From the IMG/VR virus record IMGVR_UViG_3300035698_021783, positions 1 to 23,907 of that record: 23,907 nt of DNA; one strand, 5' to 3'. The DNA comes from a virus. Shown here one piece after another: positions 6,001 to 17,099 of the stretch (its first letter is position 1; each line of letters starts with the position of its first letter). Position numbers and translations under genes: made by a program. The notes beneath the pieces were generated by a model. That model searched no databases and was not told the origin of the DNA. It worked only from the letters and a program-made list of their open reading frames with translations.

Positions 6001-9000
6001 CAGTCCTCCCTTAATACTTGACAGGTTTTTACCTATAAGCATATGGCCGGCATTAGCAATTTCACCGGTAGCAAGCTTATCTACCTCTCTATCAGTTAAA
6101 GGAGATGCCTGTATGTAGTCACCTTTCTTTTCTACATTAACACCAGAGGCTTTTAAGTAGTTCACCATCTTATCCCAAGCAAAGTTGCGATTAGGTGGGG
6201 GAACCGGCAGGCCTAGTTGTATATTTCTCCAGATCTCATCGTTCTTCTGGCCTTTTATCGCTGTGGCGTCGTAAAGGTTATGCTTGGCTCCGTGAGCCAT
6301 GGCAACATACGTTGTAAGTTGATCCATAGCCTGTCCACCCTCGTCACCGCGGGTAGGCTGCTCGTCCATACTATATGAACCGTAGCTACGATGTTTCAGT
6401 TTATGCTCTACAACATGCATAAGCTTTAATATATGCTGATCGCCTGTGAATACTTTATTTTTGAATGGCTTACCATCCTTACCATCGGTAAGGGTTTCAT
6501 CCATTTCTAAATCGTTCTCTTTGAACTCTTTCTTGAGTTTAGCTAAATGGTCTGTTCCATCAAAGTTTGAAATCTCGTACGATTTGCCAGTTTTGCTAGA
6601 AAGTTTTCCAGCGGCTGTTTCAAGAAGCTGCCCAACATTCATACGTCCAGGAACACCGAACGGGGAAGCGATGACATCCATTGCTACACCTGCCTTAGTG
6701 TGCGGTGCCTCATCGTCTGCAATGATCTTGGATATAATCATTTTGTTGCCATAGCGACCAGCAATCTTGTCACCCACTTCCATAGGTGCTACAACTTTGA
6801 CGTGTATGGCGTATCTACCGCCCGTCAGCTTGCGAACATATAAAACCTTACCCTTGGCATGGCCTGAATAAGTAACGGTGCTACGGGCGTATGGGACGGC
6901 TAAGCTCTTGTTCATGGTTTTAAGTATACGCTCTTCATCCGTATACTCTTTTGGAGCGATAGCAGCTACCAGTACTTCGTTTGGTAGAACCTCTTCCCCT
7001 TCTTTAACAATTCCCTCTTTATCTAACTTCGCGAAGTTTTCAGGGGTAAGGGAGTCGGGGTAGTAAGCCATCAATTTTTCTTTATCAATCAATCCTTCTT
7101 TTGGAAGGGTGTAGTTGAATTTAAGAATCTTTTCAGATGTCATACGATTTGCAAACGACTCAGTGACAACCACAGAGTCTTCGAAATTGAATCCCTTCCA
7201 CGGCATGTAAGCCACTTTGGCATTTATACCAAGTGCTAACTCGCCTTCGTTCTGAAAGTTATTCTCTGCAAGCATTTGATTGGCAACTACTTTGTCGCCT
7301 TTTTTAACTGTTGGCTTGCTATGAATGAATGCTTCTTGGTTTAGTGGGAAGTTATTGAACAGGCCAATCTTATGAGTTTTGTTATTACCGGTTTCCTTAA
7401 TGTAGATGTAGTCATCCGTAACTTTGCTAACGGTACCAGAAGCTAGCTTAGGGGGAACAAATGGGTTCATCACATTGCTTATAACTTTGCCAAATGTCAT
7501 CTTTTTGTTAGGACCGAGAACACGAACGTGCGGCTTATCCGGGTTCGATACAGCAACTGCTTGGCCGATTTGCTTACTAGCTACCATGGCGCGGTTACCA
7601 GATACCGTTCCCAGGAACGGGATCAAGTTACTTTGATATGAAAACATGAATGCCGGATTATGTATGTATCCGTATATCTCGTCGCTGTTGAAAAGTAAAG
7701 ACTGGCCTTTGTAGTTAGCCTTTACTAGAGCACCATTCGCAACTACTTTCCCATCTTTCATAGTGTACTGATCAGGGAAACCTATTTTGTGATCCCACAT
7801 TTGCTTTGGAGTAAGCTCTTTTAGCTTACCGCCTACGGTTAGTATTTTAGTTACTAAACCTTTTTCAGTTTTGGCTACACCAATGGACAACGGAAGTGTG
7901 ACACCGATCTTTCCACTATTACCAGTCCAAGAAGGAATATAGCTATCTTCCTTTACATATAATAATCCACCGGGCACAGTAACACCATAAACTTTACCAG
8001 TGTAGTTATCTTTGGAATGGTGACCCTTAGTGGCTAATACCTGTGTGTCAGATTTTCCCAAAATACGAACTTCATAAACATCTAAATATCTTTCTTCTCG
8101 GCCATCAGGGTAACATTTGATAGATGCGGGGAACCCAAGTGAAATAATTAAACGTTCAACGTCTTTGGCAAGGTGTTCACTTGTGGTGGTATATGTTTCT
8201 TGATCAAATCGTTCTACTTTTAATGAATTTCTGGGATCTGTTCTTCTGCCATCTCCTAACATAAGAGATTCTAGTAGGGCTTCTCTAGCTTCTAGTGGGG
8301 CCTCAAATAGATCTTTAGGAATATACTTTTTATCACAATAACCAAACTGGTGAAAGTAGTTAGCAAGTTCACTATCTTTTACATATATACCGTGCGCATG
8401 CATAGCATATTTCAGTCCGAGTCTAGACAATAAGGCTTCTATGATATTTCGATTACTGCTTATAACTTGTGATATATCTAGATGATATGGTTTTTTATTA
8501 TATTTTTTTACACTACCCTCTGACAGCTGCCACCCAACAAGTGAACACCAGTCCACTATATTAAATTTTTGGCCAGAAGGAAACACAAAATGCTTATAAT
8601 TTGAATTACCTAAATAAGCCGTGTGGTCTAATTTGATAAGTCTATCTTTACCATATAACTCTTCGGCGGTTTCTATACGGTATCCTAGATTACTACGCGT
8701 ATCTATTGGCCGTACCCACATTCTGTGGTTATGCGTAACAGTTTGTTTTATTTTTTTGTTTCTAAAGGTATATAAGGTTCCATCATAATCAAATTCTTGA
8801 ATCTTGTGTGGAGTATGGAACTGTAATTCACTGTCTATATTACAAGCTACTTTGTCTTCATATGTTAATTTGTAAACATACTTCCATCCACCTAAAGTCA
8901 ATATTTTCATATACTTACAAAAACATTCCGGAGTATTCACTGGATCCAAGAAACCAACTGTTGATGGATGCACATCACGCACATTCATAGTAACAGCATG

Positions 9001-9027: not shown

Positions 9028-9050
9028 AACAGTTGTCTTACGCCACTCAC

Positions 9051-10115
9051 CTACAATAGCTGCGGGGTTGGTTTGTGGAGGCGGGCTACTAAGTTCACCA
9101 GTAGAGAAGAAATCTTTAATTGGATCACCGTATACATTTGTGGAACGATGTCTCTGATTGTGTCCTTATTATCCAATCGCCATTTTATCTTCTTTGTAAT
9201 GGTTACAGCTTTAGAATCAAGGAACGCTTTTAGCTGATCTTGCGGTGTAAATAGGTCCTTGAATACCAACGAGTCACGCTCATCTTCAGGCTCTTCACGA
9301 CGCATAACCTTCAGCAGCTTTTTGGAGGTTGCAAGGATCATGCCCTTGTTTACTTTGTCAAAACTTTGACCAAGTGTTAATTCGGTAGTCTCCGCAGATA
9401 CTGATGTATCGGCTAGATACTTATTAAACAGAACTAAAGCCTCTGCGTACGTTTTTGGTTTAGTATGCAGTAATGTTTCAACAAGCTTTATAATGGCGCC
9501 TTCAGGATCTTTCGCCCCTGCTTTAGCATTGGCCTCAAATATCTCTAAGCCCCAAGCTTTCTTCATTGGTGCGTCAGGCATGCCAAGTGCGTTAAGTATA
9601 GCATATATTGGATAGTTCTGATTACCGGCCTGAAGAAAGAATACCTCTTTCTTTGGATCCAGCATCATTTTGAAGTTGAAACCCTTTTCCAAGTTGAATT
9701 GGCTCTCAAACTGGCCGTTTGCTTTTTCGCGAGTGTAGACTCCAGGGCGCAAACGAAACTGATTAATAGTTTGATACTCATTACCATTGATGATGACAGA
9801 ATAGCGATTTGTCATTCTAGGGATTGAGGTTATCTTCAGCTTCTTGCTAGTAGATATGGTTTTATTTGTTTCATTATCAATTAGATCAAAATCAGCATAT
9901 ACAGGCATTGTCCAAGACTTGCCACTAAGCTTAACTTCCTTTTGGGATGGCAAATCATTGATTGGTGCCTTAGTCTCGTCTATGACTATGTTTTTAATCT
10001 GTATAGTATGCTTTGCGCCCGTTATCGGAAATTCATTATACAATGATTTCACGACCGTTTTCTGCATCAAGATGTCTTGAGCATTAGCATCGAGGGCGTC
10101 TACTCTTCCAGCCAT
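9051..10115 (-). CDS. RNA polymerase beta N-terminal fragment (frameshifted)
   Basis: The start is ATG at 10115 (MAGRVDALD), with AAAGGTAA just upstream; the frame could run back to 10280 but that part overlaps the promoter. Conserved beta N-terminal sequence is visible around PRMTNRYSVIINGNEYQ and RLRPGVY, matching the lobe region. Homology stops at RDIVPQ (about 9137): the following 29 residues read as nonsense to a TAG at 9051, while the next frame continues with NVYGDPIKDFF and GEWRKTTVMGTGG straight into the 3007-9027 coding sequence. Adding one base to the AAA run at 9137-9139 would rejoin the two into a single 2369-residue reading frame. It is thus one gene split by a lost base, through real mutation or sequence error. 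The fragment alone cannot be an active enzyme. Confidence 0.85.
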   Translation of the reverse strand: MAGRVDALDANAQDILMQKTVVKSLYNEFPITGAKHTIQIKNIVIDETKAPINDLPSQKEVKLSGKSWTMPVYADFDLIDNETNKTISTSKKLKITSIPRMTNRYSVIINGNEYQTINQFRLRPGVYTREKANGQFESQFNLEKGFNFKMMLDPKKEVFFLQAGNQNYPIYAILNALGMPDAPMKKAWGLEIFEANAKAGAKDPEGAIIKLVETLLHTKPKTYAEALVLFNKYLADTSVSAETTELTLGQSFDKVNKGMILATSKKLLKVMRREEPEDERDSLVFKDLFTPQDQLKAFLDSKAVTITKKIKWRLDNKDTIRDIVPQMYTVIQLKISSLLVNLVARLHKPTPQLL

Positions 10116-10764: not shown

Positions 10765-11348
10765 CATGCGAAAGATGTGGTCGAGAGTTGACACAAAAAG
10801 AGGTAGCAATAAAGAAAGCCTTATGTTATTTCTGCATCTTTGATAACATTCTGAGAGCCAGGGAATTCAGCGATGACCCAGACGAGGTACGCGTGCCATC
10901 GCCAGAATCCCTTGGCCGCACTAAAGAGGCTCTGCAAAAACATATACAACAAACAAAGGATGGCAAAGCAACGGCGCAAAAGACGCTCGAGCGAGCCGGG
11001 GCAGAGGTAGCTAATAAGGGGTTTGTGCCAACACACAAATTGGGATTTACCGAAGAAGAGCGAAAAGCTACGGTGCTGGAATTTGGGTATGACCCAGGTG
11101 TCCAGCCAAAGGTAACACGCATTGCAAGCGAAAAAACAGGGCCCGGGCAATCACAGTTATCGTTCTCCATTCCCGCACATGTAGGGGATATGGAATCTGA
11201 TGTGGTACAGCGGCTACTGGAGGAGTGGAACCAAATGCTTATTAGGTTCTTAACATACGGAAGTACAACACCTAAGTCGATAGAGGAAATATTTTACGGG
11301 ACCAAGCCAAGCCAGCCATCTTTTGGCGGACCGATGGGAGATTATTAA
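10761..11348 (+). CDS. Zinc-finger hypothetical protein in MoxR-VWA operon
   Basis: The 195-residue product starts with a four-cysteine zinc knuckle: C3-x2-C6 (CERCGRELT) and C22-x2-C25 (CYFC), separated by a basic helix. A helical charged middle follows (about 45-90), then a region with GFTEEERKATVLEFGYDPG near 94-112 and a helical segment VVQRLLEEWNQMLIRFL near 148-164. The C-terminus is Pro/Gly/Ser-rich. I do not recognise the family. It overlaps its upstream neighbour by ATGA and the MoxR gene by TAATG, so all four genes of the cluster are probably translated from one message. A role as substrate adaptor for the AAA+ ATPase is possible but unproven. Confidence 0.8.
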   Translation: MTCERCGRELTQKEVAIKKALCYFCIFDNILRAREFSDDPDEVRVPSPESLGRTKEALQKHIQQTKDGKATAQKTLERAGAEVANKGFVPTHKLGFTEEERKATVLEFGYDPGVQPKVTRIASEKTGPGQSQLSFSIPAHVGDMESDVVQRLLEEWNQMLIRFLTYGSTTPKSIEEIFYGTKPSQPSFGGPMGDY

Positions 11349-12526
11349 TGAGTACAAGTTTGACATTGCACCAGAAGGTTAAAGCCAATGAAGATTTTTT
11401 ATCCAAAATGTACGTAGAGCGCGAAGACATTATACATGGGATTCCATTGGCTATGTTCTCGAACAGTAACATGTTGCTGCTAGGCCCTCCAGGAACGGCT
11501 AAAAGCGCGGTTATTAAACGCTGGGCCGAGGCATTCGGTGGGGAGTATTTTGAGAGATTGGTTACTAAGTTCTCTACACCTGACGAATTGTTTGGACCTA
11601 TATCAGCACAGGGTCTAGACGAGGATGATTATCGACGTATCACGGACGGTAAATTACCAGAGGCTGACTTCGCCTTTATTGACGAAGTATTCAAGGCTAA
11701 CAGCGGTATTCTAAATTCGTTGCTAACTGTTATGAATGAACGTATCTTTCACAACGGCAAGCACCAGGATCCAAGAATTCCACTCAAGCTTTTAATTGGG
11801 GCCTCTAATGAGATTCCGGCAGAAGATGACGGATTGGATGCCATGTATGACAGATTCCAATTTAAGTTCCGCGCCGCATACATCAATGACGCAGCTGAAT
11901 TTGTCAATGCGTTGACGAATGATTACACGCTGCAAATGCCAGAGAAGATCCTGATGTCAGAAGTAAAGCAGGGATTAAAGGATGCCCAAGATGTTACTAC
12001 TGATCAGGCCATCATTAATTTTGTGGTGGATATTAAAAAGGCTCTGGAGAAAAAAGACATCATAGTAACCGATCGTACATGGGTAAAATGTATACAGATA
12101 ATGAAGACCGAAGCCTTCTTGCAAGGACGTCATCATGTCAGCGAAGAGGATTTCGAGATTCTGAAAAATGTGCTGTGGTCTAATCCCGATGATGAGCGTA
12201 TAGTTCATTTCTCTGTGCTGAGTGTCGCACTTCCGGAAAAGGCTACCGTGGTAGATCTGTTTGAAAAAGCAAGTAACATCTATCGCGACTTCAAGGACAG
12301 TAAAGGAAAAGTTTCTGATCGTAGTGCTTCAGGTATCGATGCCATGAAGAAGATAAAAGATGCTATCAGAGACATAGAGAAGCAGCTGAAGTACTTGCGG
12401 GAACGCGGTAAAGTTGTAGACTCTTTAGTTAAGTACAAGACCAGGCTCCAGACCATGAACAAAGAGATAGTACAGGAAGCTGTAGGTTTGGACGTGAGTG
12501 ACATATCAGCGGATATCACATTATGA
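11348..12526 (+). CDS. MoxR-family AAA+ ATPase (RavA-like)
   Basis: This 392-residue ATPase has the MoxR signature. The Walker A GPPGTAKS is at residues 46-53, FSTPDELFGPIS at 75-86, the Walker B FAFIDEVFKA at 108-117 with D112 and E113, NSLLTVMNER at 123-132, sensor-1 GASNE with N154, and MYDRF with R169 as the candidate arginine finger. A helical lid follows, and a charged coiled-coil-like region lies near 310-370 (IKDAIRDIEKQLKYLRERGK). Family members assemble as hexameric rings and remodel protein complexes together with a VWA protein, which here is the next gene, overlapping by ATGA. The closest known arrangement is RavA with ViaA in enterobacteria. The phage target is unknown. Confidence 0.93.
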   Translation: MSTSLTLHQKVKANEDFLSKMYVEREDIIHGIPLAMFSNSNMLLLGPPGTAKSAVIKRWAEAFGGEYFERLVTKFSTPDELFGPISAQGLDEDDYRRITDGKLPEADFAFIDEVFKANSGILNSLLTVMNERIFHNGKHQDPRIPLKLLIGASNEIPAEDDGLDAMYDRFQFKFRAAYINDAAEFVNALTNDYTLQMPEKILMSEVKQGLKDAQDVTTDQAIINFVVDIKKALEKKDIIVTDRTWVKCIQIMKTEAFLQGRHHVSEEDFEILKNVLWSNPDDERIVHFSVLSVALPEKATVVDLFEKASNIYRDFKDSKGKVSDRSASGIDAMKKIKDAIRDIEKQLKYLRERGKVVDSLVKYKTRLQTMNKEIVQEAVGLDVSDISADITL

Positions 12527-14130
12527 AAAAGGTAGACAATAGTATATTATCAAAGAAGCACGGGTCATTCGCTGACCCGCTCTTCGACGAAAAGTACTCA
12601 ATTATTAATGACGCGTTCGACATAGATAACTTTAATGAGCTCAAGGAAAGTGCGGCAGAAATAGGCGCACTGGGACGAAAGGGCGAAAAAGACTATGAGC
12701 AGTTCCCCGAGCTGTACCAGGACGTGTACTCATCGTTTTACAGATATAATGCAGGGCTACTCCCTGAGTATCAAATGGATCACAACTTCCTACTTAACAA
12801 CGCAGTAATGTCTAACCTTACTGAGTCACAAAAGTTCAAAGAGTTGAGAGCCATGACTAAGCTGGACACCATGGCTACTGCAATAGCAACTGAAGTGTTT
12901 GGGCGTGAGGCACTAGAAATGGCTAATGAGCTTAAAGAGAAGCAAGATGCCATTAACCGGGCTATACAAGACGCATTAGATGCAGCAAAGAAATTGCAGG
13001 AAGAGGAAGAAGCCGCAGAAGGCACCGGTGAAGATGGTGATGGCAAAGGTACAGGCGAAGCTGGAGATGGCGAAGGTGAAGAAAGTGGTGGACCTAGTGC
13101 AAATGAAATCTCGCTAAAAGAGGCTGAAAAGGCTCTACAGGAAGCGTATAAAGACGTTAGCGCTTGGGCCAAAAAAGATCTTAGTAAGGATATCAACCGA
13201 GCGATGTCTACTGTGATACAGCGCACTTCCGACACTCTGGATACCTTAAAACAATGGGGGTTAGGTGCCGGTGGAGGTGAGAACATTGGATATCGTCAAC
13301 AGATGGAATTGTTCAACAAGATCAAGAACAGCCACAAGATGAAGGAAATTGCAAAGATAGCTGGACGCCTACGCATGATTGCAACAAAGGTTTGCAAAGA
13401 AAAAATCAAGCGCGGCAGCGATGAAGTATACTCTATTGAACGCGGAAACGACCTCGCTAGAATATTACCATCTGAATTGTGTAACATGCGAAGTGCCAAC
13501 AAGGGACGTCGTAACCTATTCAAGATAGACTTCATAGAAGGTAAACTGCTTCAGTTTGCACTGTCCGGACAGGCCAAAAAATCCAAGGGTCCAATCATAT
13601 GCTGCATCGACGAATCAGGTAGCATGAATGGCATGCCTGAATACTGGGCAAAAGCTTTAGCACTTTCATTGCTGGACATAGCACAAAAAGAGCATCGTGA
13701 TTTCATGGTGATACACTACTCCGGTGAACACAGCGTTGAGCAATTAAGGGTACACGACTTCCCCAAAGAAGAAGGCCCTAATACACAGAAGACAATAGAA
13801 ATGGCAGAACTGTTTCTTAACGGCGGCACAAACTTTGAGCCTCCGCTAACACTGTCAATGCAGTATATCGACAGCAAGCCAGCGTTTTCAAAGGCAGACA
13901 TAATCTTTATAACTGATGGAGAATCACCACTTAGGGCTGACTTTGTAGAAAAATTCAACAAGTGGACTAAGGAAAAAAAGGTCAGTGTCATATCGTTACT
14001 CGTAGACACTGGATGGCATACAGCAGAAGTGTTGAACACCATTTCCAGATTAGTAATAAAGATGTCGGACATTTATAATCAGAATGCAGAGAGCGAAATC
14101 GCTCTAAACATTTTTGCAACAATGTCCTGA
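12523..14130 (+). CDS. VWA-domain protein (ViaA-like partner of MoxR ATPase)
   Basis: The 535-residue product has a helical N-terminal half, a Glu/Gly/Asp-rich low-complexity linker at about 160-192, a second helical region, and a C-terminal von Willebrand A domain starting near 356. The MIDAS metal site is intact: DESGS at 363-367, T436 in NGGTNF and D465 in FITDGES. The layout (helical N-half, C-terminal VWA with GPIICCIDESGSM) matches ViaA more than other VWA partners, though the acidic linker is unusual. ViaA binds and stimulates the ATPase of RavA, and the same is likely here given the four-base overlap with the ATPase gene. Structured RNA follows directly after its stop codon. Confidence 0.9.
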   Translation: MKKVDNSILSKKHGSFADPLFDEKYSIINDAFDIDNFNELKESAAEIGALGRKGEKDYEQFPELYQDVYSSFYRYNAGLLPEYQMDHNFLLNNAVMSNLTESQKFKELRAMTKLDTMATAIATEVFGREALEMANELKEKQDAINRAIQDALDAAKKLQEEEEAAEGTGEDGDGKGTGEAGDGEGEESGGPSANEISLKEAEKALQEAYKDVSAWAKKDLSKDINRAMSTVIQRTSDTLDTLKQWGLGAGGGENIGYRQQMELFNKIKNSHKMKEIAKIAGRLRMIATKVCKEKIKRGSDEVYSIERGNDLARILPSELCNMRSANKGRRNLFKIDFIEGKLLQFALSGQAKKSKGPIICCIDESGSMNGMPEYWAKALALSLLDIAQKEHRDFMVIHYSGEHSVEQLRVHDFPKEEGPNTQKTIEMAELFLNGGTNFEPPLTLSMQYIDSKPAFSKADIIFITDGESPLRADFVEKFNKWTKEKKVSVISLLVDTGWHTAEVLNTISRLVIKMSDIYNQNAESEIALNIFATMS

Positions 14131-14230
14131 GTATTTTAGTTTCGACATAGCGAAGCGCATCGCTACGCACGGCAGTTATAGACTGCAAGCACATCTCACA
14201 GCCAACCTCTGAGACGGTTAGCTGAAATAG
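14131..14230 (+). other. Structured RNA segment between VWA gene and retron RNA
   Basis: No ORF is visible. The segment opens with GTATTTTA (14131-14138), which can pair with TAAAATAC at 14231-14238. Inside are three hairpins: AGCGA/TCGCT near 14149-14163, GCAGT/ACTGC near 14173-14187, and CAGCcAACC/GGTTaGCTG near 14200-14224. It may be an extension of the retron RNA, an mRNA-processing structure, or a separate RNA. No T-tract follows, so it is not a simple terminator. Confidence 0.5.
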
Positions 14231-14244
14231 TAAAATACTTTAAT
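14231..14244 (+). repeat. Inverted repeat arm a1 of retron RNA
   Basis: TAAAATACTTTAAT is the exact reverse complement of 14456-14469; a G-T wobble extends the pairing by one base (14230 with 14470). Its first eight bases can also pair with 14131-14138. Confidence 0.8.
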
Positions 14245-14455
14245 AGCATTCAACACAACATGAGTGTGATACGCACTCGTTAGCCTACCACCATGGAGTT
14301 TCGTAAAGCCGGGCGAAGCGACCTAACCTTAACAGGGTCGCGCCCGGACGGGGAAACCCCTTGTTACCCAATTCAGCGATAGCTTTTGTACCCTCGAGCG
14401 TGGATAAACCGAGTAAGACCCGGTGACAAAAGAAAAGTCGGCTATCGCTTTAAGT

Positions 14456-14469
14456 ATTAAAGTATTTTA
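14456..14469 (+). repeat. Inverted repeat arm a2 of retron RNA
   Basis: ATTAAAGTATTTTA closes the structured RNA by pairing with all 14 bases of a1, and lies seven bases after the msd hairpin, as expected for the a2 arm. Confidence 0.8.
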
Positions 14470-14739
14470 TACATCTCCTTTTATAGAAACTAGTACAGCG
14501 GAGCGCTGTATATGAGGCAAGAGTTGGATAGAACACCCCCTGATAAGGACGGGCGTGTCTTCCATACAAGTTACAAGTATAAAGAGAAGTTTTAGAACAT
14601 AAATGCAAGGCGAAGCGCTTTGATACGAGTAATGATCACATGCCCACAGCCGTGGGTTTATGTGATGTGAATAAAAATTAATCCGCGGATTATTTTTCGA
14701 TATTCCCACCAACAGGGAAAGTAAAACTTAAGGAGAACA
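14470..14739 (+). other. Long structured leader between retron RNA and reverse transcriptase
   Basis: These 270 bases contain no gene of normal size but several hairpins: ACAGCG-GAG-CGCTGT (14495-14509), an imperfect ACACcCCC/GGGcGTGT stem near 14534-14558, a two-part stem ATCACAT + CCCAC against GTGGG + ATGTGAT (14635-14666), an AT-rich palindrome around AATCCGCGGATT (14673-14697), and TTCCC/GGGAA (14703-14719) close to the ribosome-binding site AAGGAG (14730-14735). The palindrome at 14673-14697 ends in ATTTTT and could act as a weak terminator or attenuator. A 27-codon ORF is described separately. No convincing promoter is visible. Confidence 0.55.
14512..14595 (+). CDS. Possible 27-residue peptide in retron leader
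   Basis: ATG 14512 opens 27 codons ending in TAG, giving a hydrophilic basic peptide (MRQELDRTPPDKDGRVFH...). GGAG at 14500-14503 is 8 bases upstream, but most of it lies in the loop of the ACAGCG/CGCTGT hairpin, which could control its use. It may be a leader peptide, a small accessory gene or chance; nothing besides the ribosome-binding site supports it. Confidence 0.25.
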   Translation: MRQELDRTPPDKDGRVFHTSYKYKEKF

Positions 14740-15558
14740 ATGGATACATCGGCTACATACCAAACATTCAGAATACCAAAACGCTCTGGTGGATATAGGG
14801 AAATAAATGCACCACAAGGCAAAACTGCGGAACGTCAACAAGTTATTTTGTATACACTGTTGTATCGATTTTCGGCGCACCCAATAGCGCATGGATTCAC
14901 AAAAAATAGAAGTCCAGTTACAAACGCATCGTATCATATAGGAGCAAAGATACTGGTAAAGTTAGACATCAAAGACTTTTTCCCGTCCCTGACAGAAGGC
15001 AAAGTTCGCAAGATGTTTGAGTATCTACTACCAATGTGCAACGATGCATCTTCGTGGGACATTGATGAGCTGGTAAGCGCGGTAACATACAAAGGCAATT
15101 GTCCGCAAGGAGCATGCACGTCTCCGGCCATAGGCAACCTAGTGTTGCTTGGCATGGATAAGCAGCTTCAAGAACTGCAGCATGATTTCAACTGCGTTAT
15201 AACAAGATATGCAGATGACATTGTTTGCTCATCGAGATCAAATATGGATCTGCCGAAAATTATACCAGTGATCACTAAGCTGTTCTCAATGCACGGCTTC
15301 CGCCTAAATCGGAAAAAGGTAAAGGTCCAAAGACGGCATAGAAGAATGTCTGTTACTGGGGTAGTAGTAAATGAGAAGCAGAATATAGCAAGAGATAAGA
15401 GGAGGAATCTTAGAGCACAGCTGCATAATCTTAAGGGTAAGACGATTACACAAAAAGAGTTCCAAGTATTAAGTGGTAAGGTGGCGTGGGCAAAACAATT
15501 GAACCCACATCACGGCGAGAAACTAGAAAAGCAGCTAGAACTTATTTACAGGAATTAA
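14740..15558 (+). CDS. Retron-type reverse transcriptase
   Basis: This 272-residue RNA-directed DNA polymerase has both retron hallmarks: NASYH (NAxxH) at residues 62-66 in region X and VTG at 205-207 in region Y. Other motifs are FRIPKRSGGYREINAP at 10-25, LDIKDFFPSL at 75-84 with catalytic D76, CPQGACTSP at 121-129 and the active-site YADD at 157-160. The C-terminal thumb, which recognises the msr RNA, is basic (DKRRNLRAQLHNLKGK). Its length is on the short side for retron enzymes, which are mostly near 300 residues. ATG 14740 has AAGGAG four bases upstream. It lies 270 bases after the predicted msr-msd RNA, more than in many retrons. It would make branched multicopy single-stranded DNA. 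Bacterial retrons mostly act in anti-phage defence, so one on a phage suggests competition with other phages or counter-defence; that part is inference. Confidence 0.93.
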   Translation: MDTSATYQTFRIPKRSGGYREINAPQGKTAERQQVILYTLLYRFSAHPIAHGFTKNRSPVTNASYHIGAKILVKLDIKDFFPSLTEGKVRKMFEYLLPMCNDASSWDIDELVSAVTYKGNCPQGACTSPAIGNLVLLGMDKQLQELQHDFNCVITRYADDIVCSSRSNMDLPKIIPVITKLFSMHGFRLNRKKVKVQRRHRRMSVTGVVVNEKQNIARDKRRNLRAQLHNLKGKTITQKEFQVLSGKVAWAKQLNPHHGEKLEKQLELIYRN

Positions 15559-15571
15559 CACATGAGACACA

Positions 15572-15769
15572 ATGAAGATTTCGTCATTTTTAACTACTGT
15601 GACAAACGCGTGGACTTTGTTCAATGACTTGACAAGTAGCATAGATCATGATATTATAGGTAACACACCCGAAGACATAAAGTTGTCGGATATCGTGCGA
15701 AACCTATGTCAAAATCCACAAGTACGCGAACAAAGCAAAAAGGCAGTTAATGGCGAACAAGAAGACTAA
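15572..15769 (+). CDS. Small hypothetical protein after retron RT
   Basis: The 65-residue ORF starts 14 bases after the reverse transcriptase stop and overlaps the glycosyltransferase start by 20 bases. It is acidic, with an N-terminal mildly hydrophobic helix (MKISSFLTTVTNAWTLFNDL) and a polar C-terminus, and is unrecognised. The ribosome-binding site is weak; an ATG at 15562 in another frame opens only 21 codons. A good promoter lies inside this ORF, so part of it may serve as a leader for the next gene. Its position next to the reverse transcriptase makes it a candidate retron accessory protein, but nothing in its sequence shows that. Confidence 0.5.
   Translation: MKISSFLTTVTNAWTLFNDLTSSIDHDIIGNTPEDIKLSDIVRNLCQNPQVREQSKKAVNGEQED
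15629..15657 (+). promoter_or_regulatory. Sigma70-type promoter for glycosyltransferase gene
   Basis: A perfect TTGACA (15629-15634) and TATTAT (15652-15657, five of six) are spaced by exactly 17 bases. Transcription would start near 15664, about 86 bases before ATG 15750, uncoupling the glycosyltransferase from the retron. Confidence 0.7.
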
Positions 15770-17099
15770 AAAAAGAATACTTATATGGGGAGACTCACCA
15801 AACGTTCCAACAGGATTTGGTGTAGTATCTAAGAACCTATTTAGGGATCTACACAAAACATACTCCGTCGGATTCGTAGGCATCAACGAACACGGCATGA
15901 AGCATTATGATACCAGCAAATGGTTCATCTATCCGCTCGATCAGGGCGATCCATTTGGGTACAACAAAATGCCACGCATTATAAACGACTTTAAACCGGA
16001 TGTAATACTACTGTTTCAAGACATCTTTAACGTCGAGAACATGGTGAAGGTGGTACGGCAGGCATCACAAAAACTTCCAGTAATTGTATACTTCCCAGTT
16101 GATGGGCACCCGTACAATAAAGCCTGGGGCACAATTTTCCAAAAGGGTAAAATAAAGGATTCGGATATCGTATTTGATATGACAAATGAAATCATAACTT
16201 ATACCAAATGGGCATTGGATGAGATAAGAGCGGCTATACCGCCGTCAGCATCTAAAGAAGTGCATACACTTGCCCACGGAATTGACTTTAAATCCTTCTA
16301 CCCGTTAGCGGAAACTGAAGTCAGCAAATTGCGCAAGAAGAACGGTTGGGCCGATAAGTTTATGATTATAAACAACAACCGCTTCCAACCACGTAAACAA
16401 ATGCTGCTAACCTTGCTAGCAACATCAATGCTATACTACGGATACAATAAGTGCAAATGCGGTAATTACTACCCAATAGGCGAATACGCGTGCCCACTAA
16501 ATGGCTGCGGAATAGAGGACATAGTAGATGTTGTCCCCGGAAATTTCGATATAGGGCTATACATTCATGCCGGCAATCACGAACTAATGATGGGCCCGCC
16601 TCCTGGATGTCTATTACAATCATCAGCGATTAACGCTGGATGGGCACCTAACGAGCTTAGTAAGAACCTTCTGTTACGGAAGGAGCATCCGTATGCAGCT
16701 CCGCTAACTGAGGCAGAGCTAAATGAGCTATATAACATGGCTGATCTGAATATTACCACAGCCATCGGCGAGGGTTTCGGGTTCTCATTAGGGGAAGCAA
16801 GTGCTACTGCTACTTCAACAGTGGCGCCAAAGAACTCAGTCATGAGGGAAATACTAGGCGAGCCTGGAACGTTTGTAGACAATGCTGGTGTATTCTCAAT
16901 GGCAAATGATAACGGGCATATGCGGCCTATCGTTAGCTTACCAAAGCTAGTAGAGGCGCTAACAGTGCACTACGACGCCTGGGTTGCTAATGATCGTACA
17001 AAGGTACGGAACTACCCAGCAATGGCCAGAGCCAAGAAGCTATTTGATTGGGATGATAAACGAAAGACTTTGGAAGGATTAATCAAGAAACATGTTTGA
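15750..17099 (+). CDS. GT4-like glycosyltransferase with zinc-knuckle insertion
   Basis: This 449-residue enzyme has a GT-B fold. The N-terminal domain starts with ILIWGDSPNVPTGFGVVSKNL (9-29), the glycine-rich acceptor-side loop of family 4 enzymes; HGIDF lies near 176-180; the donor domain has NNRFQPRK with R211 and K216, and EGFGFSLGE (341-349) with the E-x7-E pair that binds the nucleotide sugar. Between the basic pair and the donor site there is an insertion with C235, C237, C248 and C253 (CKCG...CPLNGC), a probable zinc knuckle that is not part of the usual fold. The start ATG 15750 is preceded by AAAGGCAG. The acceptor is unknown; modified phage DNA, virion proteins or host surface glycans are all possible. 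It has its own promoter upstream and overlaps the next gene by 8 bases. Confidence 0.88.
   Translation: MANKKTKKRILIWGDSPNVPTGFGVVSKNLFRDLHKTYSVGFVGINEHGMKHYDTSKWFIYPLDQGDPFGYNKMPRIINDFKPDVILLFQDIFNVENMVKVVRQASQKLPVIVYFPVDGHPYNKAWGTIFQKGKIKDSDIVFDMTNEIITYTKWALDEIRAAIPPSASKEVHTLAHGIDFKSFYPLAETEVSKLRKKNGWADKFMIINNNRFQPRKQMLLTLLATSMLYYGYNKCKCGNYYPIGEYACPLNGCGIEDIVDVVPGNFDIGLYIHAGNHELMMGPPPGCLLQSSAINAGWAPNELSKNLLLRKEHPYAAPLTEAELNELYNMADLNITTAIGEGFGFSLGEASATATSTVAPKNSVMREILGEPGTFVDNAGVFSMANDNGHMRPIVSLPKLVEALTVHYDAWVANDRTKVRNYPAMARAKKLFDWDDKRKTLEGLIKKHV

Follow-up and report, generated by a model that had tools for sequence, protein, structure and literature searches.

Genes of the Locus

The DNA considered here, referred to below as the window, is the virus record IMGVR_UViG_3300035698_021783 of IMG/VR at its full length of 23,907 bases. 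On the basis of open reading frames and of Pfam and PHROG matches, it encodes a beta/beta-prime type RNA polymerase, a portal protein, an amidase, a MoxR-vWA pair and a glycosyltransferase, in agreement with an initial annotation that had described a phage genome with RNA polymerase and portal genes. A reverse transcriptase (RT) gene (14740–15558) lies downstream of the genes for a MoxR-type AAA ATPase (11348–12526; Pfam bpMoxR, 2.7e-54) and a vWA protein (12523–14130; Pfam VWA_2, 5.3e-8), and upstream of a 65-aa ORF belonging to no family (15572–15769) and of a glycosyltransferase gene (15750–17099; Pfam Glycos_transf_1, 5.1e-6), all of them on the plus strand. By synteny, MoxR and vWA are conserved upstream neighbors and the glycosyltransferase is a conserved downstream one, and the 65-aa ORF occupies the place of a different ORF of the relatives, here termed ORF-X. 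A scan with the vWA protein as a single sequence returned no matches. PADLOC, Pfam and PHROG recognise no effector among the neighbors of the RT in the window, which bears out the earlier remark that no obvious toxin is adjacent.

Some genes of this phage family carry insertions or unusual codons. On the minus strand of the window, an insertion about 1 kb long (7915–8926), bearing a LAGLIDADG-like domain, interrupts the RNA polymerase gene between NTPE and TGKIG; we read it as a putative intein, and it is missing from the RNA polymerase of the relative L002 (the same virus as L003). A frameshift at about 9050–9150 of the same strand also disrupts the reading frame of this gene and, since the frame is unbroken in L002, is likely an assembly indel. 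The vWA gene, in turn, is split in L109 (4050–5222) and L103 (4337–5271) by insertions of roughly 1 kb, that of L109 encoding an endonuclease-like protein in the fashion of a mobile intron. Finally, the portal genes of L222, L215 and L128/L216 contain in-frame TGA codons where relatives have tryptophan, a pattern that suggests recoding of TGA as tryptophan in some members.

A Minimal Reverse Transcriptase of the Retron Class

The RT is a minimal retron-type enzyme of 272 aa (Pfam RVT_1, 3.9e-20). The NASYH, VTG and YADD motifs, from which it had originally been taken for a retron RT, are all present, together with LDIKDFF and PQG, and PADLOC, NCBIfam, PDB and phylogeny agree on the retron class. 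Specifically, the top PADLOC matches are all retron RTs, the best being RT_XIII (249.7 bits, over the RT domain only); the NCBIfam model of the retron St85 RT scores 214 bits, just below its cut-off of 235, versus 66 bits for group II introns; and in PDB the leading hits are the RTs of retrons Ec86 (first, at 2.4e-29), Ec67 and Ec78. A maturase-type RT lodged in an intron RNA, as expected of a group II intron, is not what the Rfam search and the NCBIfam scores indicate. In a tree rooted on the RT of a diversity-generating retroelement (DGR), the enzyme groups with retrons and not outside their clade: the RTs of the phage family form a clade (support 98) within an all-viral group placed among bacterial retrons, and the nearest bacterial branches include RT_XIII-scoring loci of Myxococcota, Thiofilum and Psychrobacter. 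Further viral retron-type RTs, on large contigs with other surroundings (L101, L113 and L160), branch just outside the family.

The window RT starts with the first fingers strand, without the N-terminal helices that the RTs of bacterial relatives possess. The L002 enzyme, 75% identical, has the same start point, and the other RTs of the family are about 25 residues longer. All 21 family RTs retain intact catalytic motifs, including TG and YADD (YVDD in one), and the NAxxH motif is frequently GAxxH in the relatives. Strong purifying selection acts on the gene, with dN of 0.18 and saturated dS between the window and L002, and values of 0.13 and 2.89, respectively, between L099 and L100. Despite the RT_XIII match, the window locus has neither the N-terminal RT extension nor the partner proteins of type XIII retrons: alignment to the type XIII profile begins at position ~143, as seen with the full-length L002 match and its alignment, and PADLOC finds no type XIII partner protein adjacent to the window RT. 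The RT of the window fits no retron type cleanly.

Predicted RNA Units in the Leader

Directly upstream of the RT, the initial annotation had proposed a folded msr-msd RNA of 239 bases bracketed by perfect 14-base arms. The unit exists as described in its length and in the perfection of its arms, which, when measured, are 15 nt long (14231–14245 and 14455–14469). This predicted unit, U2 (14230–14470), has the arms GTAAAATACTTTAATA, followed by G, and TATTAAAGTATTTTAT, preceded by AAG; a G stands directly after the first arm (TTTAATA, then GC), at the expected branch site as far as the sequence can tell. A three-base-loop hairpin occupies 14260–14280, and the 75-nt msd-like hairpin expected before the second arm is found at 14375–14449. 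The predicted fold (-82.6 kcal/mol, z -5.6) is more stable than those of all 200 shuffled sequences, and among the units of the window U2 stands first in z-score and, by a wide margin, in arm length.

A single msr-msd per RT, as assumed at the outset, is usual though not strictly defining for retrons; the window leader instead holds an array of four units. U1 (14129–14240) has a left arm, GAGTATTTTA followed by G, that overlaps the vWA stop codon, and a right arm, TAAAATACTT preceded by AG, that is also the left arm of U2; its fold closes the a1/a2 helix (z -2.8). U3 (14476–14586, its signature arm pair spanning 14479–14584; z -1.9) has short arms of 7 bp, CTTTTATA followed by G and TATAAAGAG preceded by AAG, and a three-base-loop hairpin at 14493–14511 (GTACAGCG-GAG-CGCTGTAT) with four both-side changes relative to L002. 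U4 (14587–14729; z -4.3, with none of 200 shuffles as stable) is delimited by AAGTTTTA followed by G and by TAAAACTT preceded by AAAG, its 3' end falling at the RT ribosome-binding site, and its three-base-loop hairpin (14606–14622) likewise shows two-sided changes relative to L002. With three further units beyond U2, the predicted noncoding RNA would thus fill the whole interval between the vWA stop codon and the RT ribosome-binding site. U4 excepted, the small units exceed shuffled sequences in stability by a modest margin only (z -1.6 to -2.8). A candidate branch G directly after a1 (TA, then G) is found in every unit of the window and of L002.

Comparison of the window leader with Rfam gave no family match at the gathering threshold and no retron RNA family at a relaxed threshold. 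A sub-threshold U6atac match at 14505–14594 (25.4 bits, gathering threshold 33), together with an opposite-strand U4atac match, is not conserved in L002 and was set aside as chance. The conserved stretch AGTATAAAG...AGTTTTAGAA was considered as a phage promoter and rejected, as it occurs once in the window and is explained by the abutting arms of U3 and U4.

RNA Units in the Phage Family and in Bacterial Retrons

The features shared by these units were condensed into a signature, with a left arm ending in TA and followed by G, and a right arm beginning with TA and preceded by AG (that is, G before TA). As the signature was defined after seeing the window, it was tested on other loci. In the window it retrieves five pairs, one of them a shadow of U2, versus 0.16 in dinucleotide shuffles, none of 1000 of which reaches five; in L002 it retrieves three, versus 0.155, with three in 1000 shuffles reaching that number. 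The count is four units in the window, three in L002 and two in several other members of the family. Under the strict arm test, at least one unit is found in 14 of 19 members (shuffles 2.4), at least two in 6 of 19 (shuffles 0.12) and a shared arm in 3 of 19 (shuffles 0.01); five of the 19 fail, and two distinct members, L217/L221, have no noncoding stretch 5' of the RT. With relaxed criteria, admitting more G-U pairs and using hairpins, about nine members have at least two units, and in five of them (the window, L108, L109, L110 and L128) the first two units overlap, the right arm of the former doubling as the left arm of the latter. Unit lengths range from 78 to 320 nt.

In nearly all phage units the first arm is soon followed by a 5–9 bp hairpin whose three-base loop is closed by G..CG, although under a strict hairpin scan the fit is loose or lacking for U1 of the window and for the second unit of each of L108 and L128. 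A search for further units in the downstream noncoding gaps found no three-base-loop hairpins, and no usable consensus emerged when the last units of six phages were aligned with MAFFT. Covariation of a1 and a2, the loss of which had been named in advance as evidence against a retron, is kept in relatives: between L099 and L100, 20 arm pairs are retained, five of them with two-sided changes and none broken.

Of 74 loci from bacterial relatives of the retron, 43 carry the signature upstream, with no unit in 31, one in 39 and two in 4, and a shared arm occurs in none. The share of loci with at least two units differs between the phage family and the bacterial retrons (Fisher p 0.004), and the reverse strand contains nearly no signature pairs.

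A Core Gene of a Large-Genome Phage Family

A profile scan of IMG/VR with the RT recovered phage RTs at 36–47% identity on contigs reaching 210 kb. The relatives are without exception metagenomic contigs, and no isolate of this family is found in the phage collection. The common gene order is RNA polymerase (opposite strand), p195, MoxR, vWA, a noncoding stretch, RT, one to three ORFs, glycosyltransferase and portal (opposite strand). To avoid the bias of recovery through the RT itself, a second survey was queried with the neighboring glycosyltransferase. After removal of duplicates, about 20 distinct viruses have contigs extending far enough upstream, and every one of them has the RT in the same slot (that of L223 reads as two pieces). 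The RT is about as conserved as portal, glycosyltransferase, vWA and MoxR; its pairwise identities correlate with those of the portal, glycosyltransferase and vWA (Spearman 0.64–0.66, Mantel p 0.0005) and of MoxR (Spearman 0.43, Mantel p 0.0025). The RT is inherited vertically in this family and was not acquired recently. The retron is therefore an old, universal core gene of a large-genome phage family, and not carried defence cargo.

The region immediately 3' of the RT is more variable. In most relatives ORF-X (150–214 aa) overlaps the end of the RT gene by about 75 bases and is followed by ORF-Z (~70 aa) and then, in many, by a GP88-like or another Cys-rich ORF-Y. ORF-X represents a new protein family: no family match was found, and searches of PDB and BFVD returned no structural match (best E 0.05). 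The AlphaFold model of one example (L128, 6777–7340) is of moderate confidence (pLDDT 78, pTM 0.74). ORF-X is absent, with the RT retained, from the window, L002, L206, L217/L221 and L224; the equivalent place in L002 holds a 68-aa ORF that cannot be aligned with the 65-aa ORF of the window and is unrelated to it.

Discussion

Current understanding casts retrons as bacterial defence systems against phages, each composed of one RNA, one RT and one effector. The phage locus resembles several known systems and departs from each. Type XIII (RT_XIII), or myxobacterial-type, retrons provide the best profile match and the nearest bacterial branches, yet the phage RT is missing the N-terminal ~140 residues of the type XIII profile, and the locus has several leader units and no adjacent PADLOC partner protein. 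Retron-Eco1 (Ec86), first among solved structures in the match of its RT to the phage enzyme, combines a single noncoding RNA with an effector and an RT extended at its N-terminus, features that the phage locus does not share. The Ec86 RNA follows the same arm logic as the phage units (a1 ending in TTA before G, a2 beginning with TAA after G), a likeness to be taken as a lead and not as a test. Retron RTs are likewise present in P2-like, Pf and fecal phages (for example, Klebsiella phage 4LV2017 and Pseudomonas phage PfAC01a, the latter with an annotated St85 effector), but these are 24–33% identical and scattered among unrelated phages, whereas the RT described here belongs to the core of one large-phage family. 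The RTs of Staphylococcus jumbo phages (MarsHill, Madawaska, S6 and UFV_DC4) are similarly conserved among related large phages, where their role is unknown (PMC10638138); they are ~27% identical to the phage RT, and an msr-msd array has not been described for them. Retrons in prophages are already known (PMC8867640). In the open-access literature we found neither a core retron of a phage family nor tandem msr-msd units described; most subscription papers lie outside that scope, so that a missing report is not proof of absence.

The leader could be explained more simply if U2 alone were an ordinary retron unit making msDNA, the other arm pairs serving to regulate the RT mRNA leader (for example, by RT autoregulation or as an X-Y-Z switch for U2) and not as templates. 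The pre-eminence of U2 in arm length and z-score would fit such an arrangement, as would the arm common to U1 and U2, well suited to a switch, and the single unit of L099, L100, L103 and L104. On the other hand, U3 and U4 share the end signature and the three-base-loop hairpin and are kept separately in L002, and L098, L105 and L107 have two separate, non-overlapping units, so that we regard regulation alone as unlikely. A DGR or another template-copying retroelement is largely refuted and very improbable. Phage RTs often belong to diversity-generating elements, but in the tree the BPP-1 DGR RT forms an outgroup on a very long branch, and no template/variable repeat pair was found for the L002 leader, which has no second copy in the 189-kb L002 contig and is thus not a DGR template there.

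The remaining alternatives concern the partners of the RT. Retrons are established tripartite defence systems with the effector beside the RT (PMC12548924), and the phage RT and its msDNA might guard a toxin against competing phages, with ORF-X in the relatives, or the 65-aa ORF in the window, as the effector. The overlap of ORF-X with the RT end in most members and its new structure would suit this role; nevertheless, the effector position is not conserved, given the RT-bearing members that lack ORF-X and the failure of the small ORFs of the window and L002 to align, and defence cargo is usually patchy, not universal like this RT gene. An anti-phage retron of this kind is accordingly rather doubtful in our estimate, somewhat more so than leader regulation. 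MoxR-vWA pairs have also been described in conflict systems (PMC7159879), and the MoxR-vWA-RT order, kept in most members, may reflect a single conflict or chaperone module with the RNA or msDNA as its sensor. We judge this improbable, and the pair was rejected as a retron-specific effector or sole partner: L209, L224 and L229 have the RT without an adjoining MoxR-vWA, and Moorella phage MTATph1 has MoxR-vWA without an RT in the stretch read.

The interpretation that we consider probable is a phage-core multi-unit retron, comprising both the array anatomy and msDNA synthesis. In this scheme, one minimal retron RT would be transcribed behind a leader with several msr-msd-like units, each closed by an a1/a2 helix with UA beside the branch G and AG before the second arm. 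By analogy with retron biochemistry, the RT would fold onto a unit, use the 2'-OH of the branch G as primer and copy the hairpin adjoining the second arm. If the hairpin of each unit is copied, several different branched msDNAs would arise from one transcript; where two units share an arm, as U1 and U2 do in the window, only one of the two can form per transcript.

Given the universal presence and vertical descent of the gene within the family, and the lack of a conserved toxin, the msDNAs would serve the phage itself, and we favour their use as a set in phage counter-defence or in the phage life cycle. The likeliest use may be counter-defence, which the initial annotation had suggested alongside inter-phage competition, with decoys or antitoxin-like msDNA-RT complexes directed against host nucleases or host retrons; taken by itself, this role is a possible but rather unlikely one, its basis being gene conservation and effector absence only. 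Taken as a whole, the picture of a domesticated core retron, in which one minimal RT and an array of msr-msd units, some sharing arms as an either/or switch, supply an msDNA repertoire for the phage infection program instead of guarding a toxin, is a tentative one, to which we give somewhat less than an even chance.

If true, a fixed core retron with no conserved effector and several template RNAs would mean that msDNA is useful to phages too. It would also offer an example from nature of a single RT supplied with several templates, of use in developing retron editing tools, and the action of msDNA without a tied toxin would become directly testable.
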